From: Lachnospiraceae bacterium
GTDB lineage: Bacteria; Bacillota; Clostridia; Lachnospirales; Lachnospiraceae
Direction of reading: 5' to 3'
Assembly: GCA_015057445.1 (NCBI GenBank)
Contig: SVEI01000003.1
Location: 1 to 64,000, forward strand
DNA length: 64,000 nucleotides
Shown: one piece after another, positions 34,724 to 64,000 of the stretch
Position numbering within the stretch: the first letter of the stretch is position 1
Layout of the letters: each line of letters starts with the position of its first letter
Notes under the pieces: model-generated
Databases searched by the model: none
The model's input: the letters and a program-made list of their open reading frames with translations, nothing else
What the model was told of the DNA's origin: nothing
Translations under genes and position numbers: made by a program

Positions 34724-34780
34724 GGCTGTGGGAAATCACATACCATCCCGTCTATCTAGGGATTATGCTTCCCCACAGCC
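34724..34780 (-). other. Large interrupted hairpin between convergent genes
   Basis: GGCTGTGGG (34724-34732) pairs with CCCACAGCC (34772-34780), and an inner ATCCC / GGGAT pair (about 34744-34762) extends the stem. There is no T-tract, so a simple terminator is not convincing; it may be a structured 3' UTR of the minus-strand gene. Confidence 0.5.
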
Positions 34781-43595: not shown

Positions 43596-44438
43596 ATGAC
43601 AGTTGGAATAGTTGGATTAGGTCTTATTGGTGGCTCCTTTGCCAAGGCCTACAGTGAACATGATGAACATAGAGTTTACGCTTACGATATAAATGAACAG
43701 GTTATGAATGACGCTTACCACATGAAGATTATGGAAGATGAGCTAAATGAATCCTCCATACCAAGTTGCGACTTAATTCTTCTCGCCTTATACCCACAAG
43801 CATCCATAGACTACCTAAAAGCAAATGCTAAGTTTATTAGTAGTCATACTATGGTTATTGATTGCTGTGGTGTTAAGGAGTATGTCTGCAAGGAATGTTA
43901 TCCTATAGCTAAAGAATACGGCTTTACATTTGTAGGTGGTCATCCTATGGCTGGACGACATTTCTCAGGTCTTGAATACAGTATGAAGACTATGTACAAC
44001 GGAGCGTCTATGGTGCTAGTGCCAGAAGACTTAGCTGACGAGGCAACTATTGCAAAGGCAAAAAAGCTTCTCTCCCCTATAAAATTTGGCAAGTTTACTA
44101 TCTGTGATGCTAGAAGACATGACGCCATGATTGCATTTACATCCCAGATGGCACACGTAGTATCTAATGCATACGTGAAAAGTCCAACAGCTAAGAACCA
44201 CGACGGTTTTTCCGCCGGTAGTTACAAGGATTTAACCCGAGTTGCCTGGCTTAATGAGAATATGTGGACAGAGCTTTTCCTAGAGAATAAGGAGTGCCTA
44301 CTAGAGGAATTGACTTACTTTATAAACTCACTGAATGAATATAAAACTGCTATGGAAAATGATGATGCTGATACATTAAAAGCACTTTTAGCAGAAGGTA
44401 AGAAATGTAAGGAAGAGATTGACGGAATTTCGGAATAA
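43596..44438 (+). CDS. tyrA: Prephenate dehydrogenase
   Basis: A 280-residue NAD-dependent enzyme of tyrosine synthesis; it oxidatively decarboxylates prephenate to 4-hydroxyphenylpyruvate. TVGIVGLGLIGGSFAKAY is the dinucleotide site, and VGGHPMAGRHFSG contains the His of the active site; SAGSYKDLTRVA is the C-terminal helical domain. No ACT domain. GAAGGG precedes the ATG. It is a single gene here, not in an aro cluster. Confidence 0.92.
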   Translation: MTVGIVGLGLIGGSFAKAYSEHDEHRVYAYDINEQVMNDAYHMKIMEDELNESSIPSCDLILLALYPQASIDYLKANAKFISSHTMVIDCCGVKEYVCKECYPIAKEYGFTFVGGHPMAGRHFSGLEYSMKTMYNGASMVLVPEDLADEATIAKAKKLLSPIKFGKFTICDARRHDAMIAFTSQMAHVVSNAYVKSPTAKNHDGFSAGSYKDLTRVAWLNENMWTELFLENKECLLEELTYFINSLNEYKTAMENDDADTLKALLAEGKKCKEEIDGISE

Positions 44439-44446
44439 ATATACAC

Positions 44447-44475
44447 TTGACATTTTTAAATTTCAGTCCTAAAAT
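44447..44475 (+). promoter_or_regulatory. thrS promoter
   Basis: TTGACA (44447-44452), exactly 17 bp, TAAAAT (44470-44475); transcription should start near 44482 and run through the T-box leader. Confidence 0.8.
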
Positions 44476-44498
44476 CAAACTTAGTTTAATAAACTTAT

Positions 44499-44770
44499 CA
44501 GCTATGAAGAGACGAGTACCATAAAATCGGTCTACAGAGAGAATTCCACTACCCGCTGAGAGAGAATTCAGAATACGCTTATGGGAAGACTACCTCGGAG
44601 CTGCCTGTGCAAAACACAGGCCGTTGATTACGTTACAATCATAAAGAAGTGTCACCTTGAAAGATGCATGAGTATCCATTGGATGTTAGGTATTTATACA
44701 AGGTGGAACTAGGGTGGAACCGCGATTTATCGTCCCTAGCGTAATTATTACGCTAGGGATTTTTATATTC
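44499..44770 (+). promoter_or_regulatory. T-box riboswitch (threonine specifier) controlling thrS
   Basis: Stem I begins CAGCT (44499-44503), closed by AGCTG (44599-44603), with GAAGAGACGAGTA on the 5' side. The specifier codon ACC (Thr) is at 44592-44594. The conserved core AGGGTGGAACCGCG is at 44711-44724; its TGGA bulge matches tRNA-Thr ending in UCCA. The antiterminator pairs CTAGGG (44709-44714) with CCCTAG; the competing terminator CCCTAGCGTAAT/ATTACGCTAGGG (44734-44758) is followed by ATTTTTAT. Uncharged tRNA-Thr prevents termination and turns thrS on. Confidence 0.93.
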
Positions 44771-44775
44771 CTTTT

Positions 44776-45018
44776 CCACACAGCACCGACTAAGGGATTC
44801 CGGCGACTGTAAGAGGTCACCTTCATCCCTTGTCGGATGCTTGTGTGGGAAGTCACAATATCGCCCCTAGCAATAGGCAGCCCTGTGAATTACAGGCGCT
44901 TAATCGATAACCAGCTTAGCTAACATAGGTAAGGGGTGAAGGTTACCTCTTACAGTCGCCGAAACCCCTTTGCCTATGAGCTAAGCGTCCGGGCTACTAT
45001 ATCCCTGTAATCACAGGG
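44776..45018 (+). ncRNA. Unidentified structured RNA in the thrS leader, paired hairpins with complementary loops
   Basis: Hairpin 1 (44776-44848) has a 21-bp interrupted stem (CCACACA-GC-CCGAC-AAGGGAT) and a 26-nt loop. Hairpin 2 (44914-44986) has an 8+6+6 bp stem (GCTTAGCT, CATAGG, AAGGGG) and a 28-nt loop. The two loops are complementary: 44801-44829 pairs with 44933-44961 over 29 positions with one mismatch and one wobble. Between them lie a helix TATCG/CGATA enclosing a CCTA-GCAA-TAGG GNRA-capped hairpin and CCTGT/ACAGG. Another CCCTGT/ACAGGG hairpin (45003-45018) follows. No T-tract follows, so it is not a terminator. No family was recognised. Confidence 0.7.
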
Positions 45019-45055
45019 TGTCCGGAGAACCAACATATAGAAAGGAAGAAAAAAC

Positions 45056-46993
45056 ATGATTATCACACTTAAAGACGGATCATCAAAAGAGTACGCTCAG
45101 CCAATGAGTGCCTATGACATAGCTGCTGACATCAGCGAGGGTCTTGCACGTATGGCTTGTGCAGCAGAGATTAACGGAGAGGTATGTGACCTTAGAACAA
45201 TTGTTGATAAGGACTCTACTCTTAACATTTTCACATTTAATGATGAGGAAGGTAAGAAAACCTTCTGGCATACAGCAAGCCACATTTTAGCACAGGCTGT
45301 TAAGCACATTTTCCCAGATGCAAAGTGTGCTATAGGACCAGCTATTGACAATGGTTTTTACTATGACTTCGATATGCCTTCACTTAGCCGTGAGGACTTA
45401 GATAAGATTGAGGCTGAGATGAAGAAAATCGTTAAAGAGGGTTCTGAGGTAACTGCATTTACCCTTCCAAGAGCTGAGGCTATCAAGCTTATGGAGGAGA
45501 AGGATGAGCCTTACAAGGTAGAGCTTATTAACGACCTTCCAGAGGATGCAACTATTAGCTTCTATACTATGGGTGATTTCACTGACCTTTGTGCAGGTCC
45601 TCACCTTATGAATACTAAGGCTGTTAAGTTCTTCAAGTTAACATCTTCATCAGGTGCTTACTGGAGAGGAAACTCAGACAACAAGATGCTTACTAGAATC
45701 TATGGTACTGCATTTACTAAGAAGGCAGATCTTGAGGAAAGACTTGAGTTTTTAGAGAATATTAAGCTTCGTGACCACAACAAGCTTGGACGTGAGCTTG
45801 AGCTTTTCACAACTGTTGACGTAATCGGTCAGGGACTTCCACTTCTTATGCCAAAGGGTGTTCAGATTATCCAAACTCTTCAGAGATGGATTGAGGACGA
45901 GGAGGAAAAGCGTGGTTATGTAAGAACTAAGACTCCTCTTATGGCAAAGAGCGACCTTTACAAGATTTCAGGACACTGGGATCACTACAAGGATGGTATG
46001 TTCGTACTTGGTGACGAGGAAAAAGACAAGGAGGTATTCGCCCTTCGTCCTATGACTTGTCCATTCCAGTACTATGTTTATAAGGCAAGCCAGAAGTCAT
46101 ACAGAGACTTACCTATCAGATACGGTGAGACTTCAACCTTATTTAGAAACGAGGACTCAGGTGAGATGCACGGTTTAACACGTGTTCGCCAGTTTACTAT
46201 ATCAGAGGGTCACTTAATTGTTAGACCTGACCAGATGATTAGCGAGTTTAAGGATTGTATAGCTCTTGCACAATACTGCTTACAGACCTTAGGAGTTGAA
46301 GAAGATGTAACATATCACTTATCAAAGTGGGATCCTGAAAATAAGGAAAAATACATCGGTGAGCCTGAGGTTTGGGAGAAGACAGAGCAAGATATTAGAA
46401 ATATTCTTAATGAGTTAAATATACCATTTACAGAGGATGTAGGAGAGGCTGCATTCTATGGTCCTAAGGTAGATATTAATGCTAAAAATGTTTACGGCAA
46501 GGAAGACACTATGATTACCATTCAGTGGGATGCTTTACTTGCAGAACAGTTCGATATGTACTTCATCAACAAGGACGGCGAGAAGGAAAGACCTTACATC
46601 ATCCATAGAACCTCTATGGGATGCTATGAGAGAACTCTTGCTTGGCTTATCGAGAAGTACGCTGGTGCATTCCCAACTTGGTTATCACCAGAGCAGGTTC
46701 GTATCCTTCCTATTTCAGAGAAGCATCACGAGTATGCAAACACTGTACTTGCAAAGCTTAAAGCTGCTGGTGTTCGCGCTACTATAGATGAGAGAGCTGA
46801 AAAGATTGGCTACAAGATTCGTGAGGCAAGATTAAATAAGCTTCCTTATATGCTTATCATCGGTGCTAACGAGGAAGAGTCAGGCACAGTTTCAGTTAGA
46901 AAGCGTGGCGAGGACGGCGACCTTGGAAGCATGGAAGCAGATAAATTCATCGCTGATATCGTTAAGGAAATTGCAGATAAGGTAATAAACTAA
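45056..46993 (+). CDS. thrS: Threonyl-tRNA synthetase
   Basis: A 645-residue class II synthetase. Residues 1-60 are the TGS domain; 65-215 the editing and SAD region (FWHTASHILAQAVKHIFP with the zinc HxxxH, DFTDLCAGPHL with Cys); 260-540 the catalytic core with the zinc-binding Cys (LRPMTCPFQ), motif 2 (FRNEDSGEMHGL) and motif 3 (GCYERTLAW); 550-645 the anticodon-binding domain. AAAGGAAG precedes the ATG. It is regulated by the T-box leader upstream and possibly by the extra RNA at 44776-45018. Confidence 0.97.
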   Translation: MIITLKDGSSKEYAQPMSAYDIAADISEGLARMACAAEINGEVCDLRTIVDKDSTLNIFTFNDEEGKKTFWHTASHILAQAVKHIFPDAKCAIGPAIDNGFYYDFDMPSLSREDLDKIEAEMKKIVKEGSEVTAFTLPRAEAIKLMEEKDEPYKVELINDLPEDATISFYTMGDFTDLCAGPHLMNTKAVKFFKLTSSSGAYWRGNSDNKMLTRIYGTAFTKKADLEERLEFLENIKLRDHNKLGRELELFTTVDVIGQGLPLLMPKGVQIIQTLQRWIEDEEEKRGYVRTKTPLMAKSDLYKISGHWDHYKDGMFVLGDEEKDKEVFALRPMTCPFQYYVYKASQKSYRDLPIRYGETSTLFRNEDSGEMHGLTRVRQFTISEGHLIVRPDQMISEFKDCIALAQYCLQTLGVEEDVTYHLSKWDPENKEKYIGEPEVWEKTEQDIRNILNELNIPFTEDVGEAAFYGPKVDINAKNVYGKEDTMITIQWDALLAEQFDMYFINKDGEKERPYIIHRTSMGCYERTLAWLIEKYAGAFPTWLSPEQVRILPISEKHHEYANTVLAKLKAAGVRATIDERAEKIGYKIREARLNKLPYMLIIGANEEESGTVSVRKRGEDGDLGSMEADKFIADIVKEIADKVIN

Positions 46994-62757: not shown

Positions 62758-62831
62758 GTTTCCGTAGCTCAGCTGGATAGAGCAACCGCCTCCTAAGCGG
62801 TAGGTCGGGCGTTCGAATCGCCTCGGGAACA
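62758..62831 (+). tRNA. tRNA-Arg (CCT)
   Basis: 74 nt. Acceptor GTTTCCG/CGGGAAC with discriminator A; D arm GCTCAGCTGGATAGAGC; anticodon arm CCGCCTCCTAAGCGG with anticodon CCT; T loop TTCGAAT. CCA is not encoded. Confidence 0.95.
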
Positions 62832-62853: not shown

Positions 62854-62918
62854 GTTACAAAATATGACAACGGAAGTACGATGCTTGCATCAGTACAGCT
62901 GTTGTCATATTTTGTAAC
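62854..62918. repeat. 65-bp nested inverted repeat (cruciform-like) after tRNA-Arg
   Basis: GTTACAAAATATGACAAC (62854-62871) and GTTGTCATATTTTGTAAC (62901-62918) are perfect 18-bp arms. The loop has an inner palindrome GTAC-GATGC-TT-GCATC-A-GTAC (62876-62896). Confidence 0.9.
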
Positions 62919-63076
62919 ATAGGGCGAATGCCCGTGGGCTTGTCGAACCGACAGGTTCGGCAAGACTGAGCACTTCGATTTGTGACATACTGTAACATAG
63001 GGCGAATGCCCGTGGGCTTGTCGAACCGACAGGTTCGGCAAGACTGAGCACTTCGATTTGTGACATACTGTAACAT
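62913..63076. repeat. 78-bp tandem direct repeat (two full copies plus 8 bp)
   Basis: Identical 78-bp units at 62913-62990 and 62991-63068, and the first 8 bp of a third. Each unit carries an 11-bp hairpin (CTTGTCGAACC / GGTTCGGCAAG) and a GCCCGTGGGC palindrome. The units are far more GC-rich than the surrounding DNA. The first unit overlaps the end of the 65-bp inverted repeat. Confidence 0.95.
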
Positions 63077-63093
63077 TCCTGAAAGGAGACTAT

Positions 63094-64000
63094 ATGACAA
63101 ATTTAGATAATGAAAAAATATATATAATTGGACATAAGAATCCCGACACTGATTCTATTTGTTCTGCCATTAGCTATGCATATTTGAAAAATAAGCTTAC
63201 CGGTAAAAGCTATGTTCCTATGCGTGCTGGTGATGTTAATGCAGAAACTGAATACGTATTAAAATATTTTAATTTTCCCACTCCTGAATTAGTGGAAAAT
63301 GTATATACCCAGGTTAAAGATGTTGAGTATAGACATTTGGACGGTGTCTCTGGGGAAATATCCATTAAAAAAGCTTGGGAAATCCTAAGTGGCACTCACT
63401 GTACAACTCTTCCTTCTGTAGATGAACATCAGAATCTGGTAGGTCTTATAACAGTTAAAGATATTGCTATGACCTATATGGAAGTCTATGACAATGAAAT
63501 AATTGCCACTGCAAAAACACCTTATCAAAATATTTTAGATACCCTTTCTGCAAAACTTGTAGTTGGTAATCCTAAGGACCAAGTTCTTACTGGTAAGGTA
63601 CTGATTGCTGCTGCAAATCCTGATATGATGGAAAACTATATTGAAAAAAATGATATAGTTATTCTTGGAAATAGATATGAGTCCCAGCTTTGTGCTATAG
63701 AAATGGAAGCTCAGTGTATAATAATTTGCGATGGAGCAGACGTATCAAAAACAATTACCAAGTTGGCTGAAGAGAGAGGTTGTTCGATAGTAATTACACC
63801 ATATGACACCTACACAGTGGCAAGACTTATTAACCAGAGTATTCCTATTAGACACTTTATGAAGAAGAATAACCTCATTACATTTTCTGATGAGGATTAT
63901 ATCAATGATATAAGAGATGTTATGGCTAGTAAGCGCCACCAATATTACCCTGTTTTAGATGATAATGAAAAATATATGGGACTTATTTCACAGCGAAATT
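63094..64000 (+). CDS. Manganese-dependent inorganic pyrophosphatase with CBS domains (partial, runs off the window)
   Basis: 302 codons are visible. The DHH-family start YIIGHKNPDTDSICSAISYAYL carries metal-binding residues; residues 70-125 form a CBS domain (IKKAWEILSGTHCTTLPSVDEHQNLVGLITVKDIA), then a DRTGG-like domain (about 150-250) and a second CBS motif beginning near 270 (MASKRHQYYPVLDDNEKYMGLIS). Such regulated family II enzymes hydrolyse pyrophosphate and are inhibited by AMP or ADP. AAAGGAG precedes the ATG. The C-terminal DHHA2 domain would lie beyond the window. Confidence 0.9.
   Translation, partial: MTNLDNEKIYIIGHKNPDTDSICSAISYAYLKNKLTGKSYVPMRAGDVNAETEYVLKYFNFPTPELVENVYTQVKDVEYRHLDGVSGEISIKKAWEILSGTHCTTLPSVDEHQNLVGLITVKDIAMTYMEVYDNEIIATAKTPYQNILDTLSAKLVVGNPKDQVLTGKVLIAAANPDMMENYIEKNDIVILGNRYESQLCAIEMEAQCIIICDGADVSKTITKLAEERGCSIVITPYDTYTVARLINQSIPIRHFMKKNNLITFSDEDYINDIRDVMASKRHQYYPVLDDNEKYMGLISQRN

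Follow-up and report, generated by a model that had tools for sequence, protein, structure and literature searches.

Inverted hairpins between the T-box and thrS of a Lachnospiraceae bacterium are probably two copies of a small structured repeat

Analysis of the window, a 64,000-nt stretch of Lachnospiraceae DNA, indicated that positions 44774–45025 probably consist of two inverted copies (h1 and h2) of a small, lineage-restricted repeat of the REP/BOX kind. The repeat would be mobile or formerly mobile, would be kept as the folded form of one strand (the S strand), and would have little or no switching role in thrS. It most likely represents a new family of small structured interspersed repeats, assigned to none of REP, BOX or MITE. 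The features are listed in Table 1.

Table 1. Features of the thrS leader, other copies of the repeat, and copies of a further structured repeat
Feature	Position	Strand	Basis or context
T-box leader (RF00230) with its own terminator	44495–44740	+	Rfam, 104 bits; terminator scan; separate from the repeat
T-box terminator	44732–44760		Sole terminator found in the scan of 44440–45060
Repeat unit h1	44774–44851	−	R1 model match at 44791–44832, 68 bits; fold; G031 orthologue, inverted G012 relative
h1 conserved core (P3, 3x3 GNA loop, P4, CUCUUACA apical loop)	44792–44831	− (read on the minus strand)	
Outer frame, CAGCCCTGTGAATTACAGG ... CCCTGTAATCACAGGGTGTCCGG	44878–45025	+	Sequence, leader comparison, alignments
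Repeat unit h2, CAGC ... GCGTCCGG	44912–44992	+	End-pattern search; R1 match at 44930–44971; fold
h2 conserved core	44931–44970	+	
thrS (threonyl-tRNA synthetase), downstream gene	45056–46993	+	ORF; Pfam TGS, tRNA_SAD, tRNA-synt_2b, HGTP_anticodon
ribD copy (G000)			Between the FMN riboswitch (RF00050) with its terminator and ribD
metY copy (G000)			3' of a Cys/Met-metabolism PLP enzyme (here called metY); Pfam
S10-region copy			Upstream of the S10 operon, before the S10-Clostridia leader RNA and outside that leader
ribH copy			Between ribBA and ribH (operon gap)
DUF2207 copy			Between a DUF2207 gene and a saccharopine-dehydrogenase-like gene
GGCCGACCTGCCTAGGG repeat copies	L118:7059–7256; L120:103–229; L039:4041–4155; L107:2456–2589		

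Both hairpins of the original prediction were present between the thrS T-box and thrS. The structured insert was supported as distinct from the T-box, which was already complete upstream, its Rfam match ending before the repeat region; in line with the earlier claim, the scan found no terminator in the h1/h2 region. Folding of 44765–45055 gave a z of −9.8, with 0 of 200 dinucleotide shuffles as good. The two small hairpins between h1 and h2 were located at 44866–44877 (CCTA-GCAA-TAGG) and 44882–44896 (CCTGT...ACAGG); by eye, the first, a GNRA hairpin, was not kept in the leaders of the sister species G003, G012 and G031. The S strand of h1 is antisense to thrS and that of h2 is sense to thrS. 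The ends of the outer frame are of the same kind as those of the unit inside it, and the frame is common to G003 and partly to G012. On its minus strand (44996–45024) lies a weak sigma-70-like site (9/12) that would transcribe h1 in the folding sense; the scan gave 2 such sites against a chance mean of 1.3. The Rfam covariance-model search proposed earlier, at the gathering level and up to E = 10, left only the T-box as a credible match and returned nothing for the repeat. HEARO/omega RNA, which had been offered as an example, was not among the 7 matches up to E = 10 in 44400–45200.

The loops at 44801–44829 and 44933–44961 were complementary as reported, 28 of 29 positions pairing (27 Watson-Crick and one wobble). 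The full inverted repeat is 40 nt long (44792–44831 with 44931–44970) and 90% complementary (36/40 nt), with a BLAST E of 1.7e-8 within the genome. The loops are complementary because h1 and h2 are inverted copies of one repeat. They had been described as uninterrupted over 26–28 nt; instead, each contains a 3x3 internal loop and a 6-bp apical helix.

On the S strand, the core reads AAGGGGU-GAA-GGUGAC-CUCUUACA-GUCGCC-GUA-ACCCCUU. Eleven distinct cores (of 12 copies, one of which was dropped as its core was identical to another) shared a fold with a 7-bp P3, a 3x3 GNA/GNA internal loop, a 6-bp P4 and an invariant CUCUUACA loop. In this set, 142 of 143 pair cells formed (99.3%), comprising 128 Watson-Crick pairs, 14 G-U, no A-C and one other, and both sides had changed in 7 of 13 pairs. 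On four of five covariation measures, 0 of 500 shuffles were as high; the fifth (further pair types) was reached by 154/500 shuffles for the core, 86/500 for a trio of h1-type thr units and 291/500 for the 12-pair run. When the structure was slid by 1–3 columns, pairing was 30–56%, and the core read on the complementary strand was 88.6% paired (12 pairs). Each side of the internal loop began with G and ended with A in 11/11 copies, with a variable middle base; symmetric loops with sheared G-A pairs occur in RNA and DNA. Of the covariation proposed for checking with the original prediction, stem covariation was found both in the core and in the h1-type thr units.

For 10 of the 11 units, S gave the better fold of the two strands; in the remaining unit, G012_C1, the complement was better by 0.3 kcal/mol. 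In the best folds of whole 89-nt units (n = 11), G-U pairs were equal on both strands (21 and 21), so the strand signal lies in the head and not in the arms. The 14 core wobbles were confined to 4 pair columns and thus represent few independent events, though all point to S. Most likely, the folded S strand is what is kept, with RNA as its likeliest form; the asymmetry of the core is also expected of a folded single DNA strand, which counts against an RNA-specific reading.

The original prediction had offered, as one reading, a kissing loop or a switchable RNA of the thrS leader, which now appears barely credible. The 29-nt loop complementarity between h1 and h2 would suit such a device. A forced 40-nt h1–h2 duplex is about 5 kcal/mol worse than two hairpins (−93.6 vs −98.7 in G000), P4 of h2 in G000 contains one mismatch, and the complementarity between the cores in G031 is just slightly lower (36/40 standard pairs). 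However, G003 and G012 each have a lone copy in the thrS leader, and five further loci (ribD, metY, S10-upstream, ribBA-ribH and DUF2207) also hold single copies. G031 carries both copies; there, P4 pairs completely within each hairpin, and from G000 to G031 the inter-core pairs fall from 36 to 34 (Watson-Crick) and from 37 to 36 (standard) of 40. Covariation in P4 also runs within hairpins (at one pair, G-C in 6 copies, A-U in 4 and another in 1). The kissing loop was set aside because of the single-copy loci, and the small drop in G031 weighs less. The h1–h2 duplex is possible as an alternative, but pairing between the cores is not what is conserved.

A pattern search (up to 3 mismatches) found 4 core copies in the genome of the window (G000), namely h1, h2, ribD and metY, and BLAST of 44760–45055 against the same genome placed the core at two sites besides h1 and h2. 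The genus scan gave 12 copies in 4 of 37 genomes (G000 4, G031 4, G003 2, G012 2), a strong copy being missing in the other 33. The carrier genomes were drafts of 82–98% completeness, with one genome per species, and they shared only the thrS and DUF2207 sites. All copies are intergenic with respect to Pfam-recognised genes, occupying leaders, 3' regions and an operon gap; at two loci the flanking genes are convergent, and mechanical ORFs of 76–123 aa overlap the ribD, metY and DUF2207 copies.

In a family sample of 397 genomes spread evenly across 334 genera, the covariance model of the core hit its own genome only, among the matches listed. BLAST of the leader against 61 relatives matched 6 genomes at E ≤ 0.01; four were the carriers, and G023 and G053 each gave one weak match (E 0.003–0.005), to the outer end in G023 and to part of h1 in G053. 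Weaker R1 model matches (G018 C32, 7.8e-6; G018 C92, 7.8e-4; G003 C13, 0.004; G031 C451, 0.005; G007, 0.23) may be relatives and were excluded from all copy counts; by eye, GNA loops on both sides were present in G018 C32 only. Scanning named genomes for the exact pattern gave five stretches, distributed over three MAGs of Lachnospiraceae (sheep rectum, water deer caecum and SIG296). Since these stretches occupy the same loci as in G012, G031 and G003, the MAGs are probably the same genomes and add no evidence. The search for CAGC...GCGTCCGG ends in 6 genomes gave 6 matches, of which 4 include the head and the other 2, by eye, have no complementary arms; the reversed control gave 5, so no large head-less family is apparent.

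Phages gave no match to the repeat. One Haloarcula plasmid record matched at 89.7% over query bases 26–64, overlapping the h1 core (E 2e-3); it lay inside an annotated ABC permease and was taken as chance. In IMG/VR, the first pattern had 0 exact matches and a looser one had 1; the contig with this single match covered only model positions 12–31 (21.6 bits, E 0.0005 in 4.5 kb), folded without P3 or GNA loops, and was likewise ascribed to chance.

The loci also bear on whether the repeat is a host regulatory RNA, whose head (the GNA/GNA loop and CUCUUACA) would bind a protein or small RNA controlling or stabilising mRNAs (thrS, ribD, ribBA-ribH and others). The head fold is conserved on one strand, and where the repeat occupies a 5' leader or an operon gap, S runs in the sense direction at h2, G012 thrS, ribD and ribH; riboflavin genes account for two of the six loci, each in a different species, and ribD has an FMN riboswitch. 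We nevertheless consider this explanation rather unlikely: h1 is antisense in G000 and G031, the copy near S10 precedes the S10 leader RNA and is not part of it, two loci are between convergent genes, and the sites shared by carriers and the number of genus genomes with a strong copy are as few as given above.

It is very improbable that the repeat is an intergenically dispersed roadblock to transcription or an elaborated form of intrinsic terminator. At metY and the S10-upstream site, the arms are flanked by an A-tract and a T-tract (AAAAACC...GGTTTTT), and by eye the metY loci of G012 and G018 have plain terminators in the place of the repeat. By eye, no T-tract was present at the thrS h1/h2, ribD, ribH or DUF2207 copies, and the thrS and ribD copies lie between a riboregulator terminator and the gene, where more termination would cost expression.

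The units are about 75–90 nt long, with 26–32 pairs in the 89-nt S-strand folds of 11 units, which include the internal loop. The cores were about 88% alike (mean column identity), while the lower arms were strongly variable and nearly unrelated between loci, yet complementary. Arm traces common between loci were noted by eye (AGCCCA...TGGGC at the base and CCAC AAGGGG beside the head). The stems of h1 and h2 had been called unrelated; the two do differ from one another, but both are found again in sister species, with compensatory changes in the case of h1. In the three h1-type thr units, 31 pairs were compared, of which 6 had changed on both sides; 93.5% of cells were paired, and four of five measures were reached by 0/500 shuffles. 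In the one orthologous h1 pair (G000 vs G031, by eye), arms and head diverged at similar rates, so age alone does not easily explain like heads with unlike arms. Like cores with unlike arms are also not predicted by simple copy-paste, which counts against the reading as a mobile repeat. Template switching is able to keep stems perfect without selection (as described in the available text of PMC8794818); such switching, however, would be expected to remove the mismatches of the internal loop, which is kept.

The 3' end of S was GCGTCCGG at h2 and ribD, GCGTCAG at G012 thrS and GTGTCCGG at ribH, and inverted ends were observed at h2 and ribD. In G012, an h1-type unit was inverted inside the outer frame of h2, arms included; the alignment scored 122 inverted vs 110 in the same sense, the latter carried by the frame and core. 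The whole unit, arms included, has thus moved or flipped. A new class of mobile structured elements recognised only as a folded single strand, with conserved ends and head, arms rebuilt at each new site and units nesting in one another's hairpins, would fit this picture, but we regard it as unlikely.

Sister species with ThrS 96–99% identical (matched over part of ThrS in G005 and G009) had no repeat at thrS: G033 had a short leader, and G005, G009 and G018 had other sequence. At ribD of G003, an apparent truncated remnant was seen by eye. In the thrS tree of 18 genomes, all carriers fell in one 8-species clade (100/99) along with four non-carriers; the carriers as a single clade had support of just 35/32. 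The idea of a standalone mobile-element RNA in the original prediction comes close to this evidence of dispersed copies and of sister leaders that have no insert. No mobilising enzyme was found: a Y1 transposase (PF01797) was absent from the draft genomes G000, G003 and G012, with one partial match in G031, and it was therefore rejected as the mobiliser, not being found in 3/4 carriers. No target-site duplication was recognised by eye against the G033 leader. These points and the low copy number (4, 4, 2 and 2) count against the mobile-repeat reading. Phase-variable inversion of the DNA between the cores was also rejected; it would break both hairpins, yet both are intact in G000 and G031.

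The hairpin may instead act as DNA, as a folded single-stranded recombination or transposition site like integron attC or REP. Integron attC sites have variable complementary arms and strand-marking extrahelical bases and are recognised as a folded single strand. By eye, the repeat resembles them in its complementary arms, extrahelical bases and folded single strand; to our knowledge, attC sites have no conserved apical head and end in other motifs. Conserved ends and head, variable but complementary arms with bulges and the occurrence of both orientations relative to genes speak for such a site, and the wobble bias of the core (G-T kept, A-C never) fits single-stranded DNA too. Given that a Y1 transposase was absent from G000, G003 and G012 and that the flanking ORFs read included no recognised transposase or integrase, this role is decidedly unlikely. 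No cassette array was noticed by eye at the repeat loci.

The repeat was also set beside published descriptions of intergenic elements. As the available text of PMC3049150 describes them, BOX, RUP and SPRITE are likewise small structured intergenic repeats of few related species, with nested insertions and an excess between convergent genes. A pneumococcal BOX element lies between trp T-boxes and is co-transcribed with them, and those T-boxes apparently still work (PMC3049150, in part); this position in a T-box leader parallels that of the thrS repeat. Compared by description, BOX is modular (A, B, C), while the thrS repeat has one head, variable arms and 2–4 copies per genome (PMC3049150, in part).

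According to the available text of PMC3733652, REPs (GTAG, CGTC) are also extragenic palindromes in inverted pairs (dimers), including heterodimers with different stems; many lie between convergent ORFs and they possibly act as RNA. The S-strand end GCGTCCGG includes CGTC, and CGTC REPs likewise have no dedicated transposase (same source). This CGTC-like string is at the 3' end of S, partly in the stem, and its polarity and pairing differ from the published REP tag. REPs measure 20–40 bp, with stems of 8–9 bp (CGTC) or 5–13 bp (GTAG), in the same source, and the thrS repeat is about 75–90 nt with an internal 3x3 loop and bulges. The repeat thus lacks the short palindrome and stem of a REP, the high copy number, and, in G000, G003 and G012 (one partial match in G031), the RAYT/Y1 transposase of the GTAG type, and was for these reasons not filed as REP. 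In the main text of PMC3733652, the words Firmicutes and Clostrid- do not occur.

Other structured repeats and inserts were observed. At 62854–63100 of the window, beside a tRNA gene (62758–62831), a tandem repeat of period 78 had 97-nt self-matches at 95.9% identity and a 66-nt inverted partner piece at 85%. Its GGGCGAATGCCCG also occurred in the G018 thrS leader (L048), and the array resembles a structured repeat family of its own. G000 and sister species also contained GGCCGACCTGCCTAGGG ... CTGAC ... GGTCGG, a structured repeat set within terminator-like arms; its copies were 72–77% alike where BLAST joined them, the L118 copy being joined to L039 only, and no Rfam match was present there in L039 or L107. 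At 34724–34780 of the window, a short hairpin (GGGCTGTGG...CCACAGCC) resembled by eye a reduced copy of the GGCCGACCTGCCTAGGG family; BLAST gave no second copy in the stretches compared. In L049 (G030), about 300 nt before thrS, the interval separating this gene from its T-box contained a different, long insert. In 27 leaders, the T-box motif and the start codon were 75 to 389 nt apart, and this spread makes the gap look like a hot spot for inserts.

We infer from these comparisons a non-autonomous element of the REP/BOX kind, mobile now or in the past, whose folded S strand, most likely as RNA, would be recognised by some protein and therefore kept. The h2 copy would sit within an outer frame with like ends, and the loop–loop complementarity would be a by-product of two oppositely facing copies. 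In mRNA that reads through after T-box antitermination, the copies at thrS would add stable structure; any switching role would be small or absent, and the copies may be expected to be passive or mildly stabilising.

The false lead of a thrS switch is thus replaced by a family of structured repeats, of which no description was found in Rfam or in a limited literature search. The family is also relevant to the question of how much inserted structure T-box and riboswitch leaders can tolerate. If the arms are truly rebuilt while the head and ends stay, the family would be a test case for the origin and upkeep of hairpin stems, by selection or by template switching (the latter as in the available text of PMC8794818).
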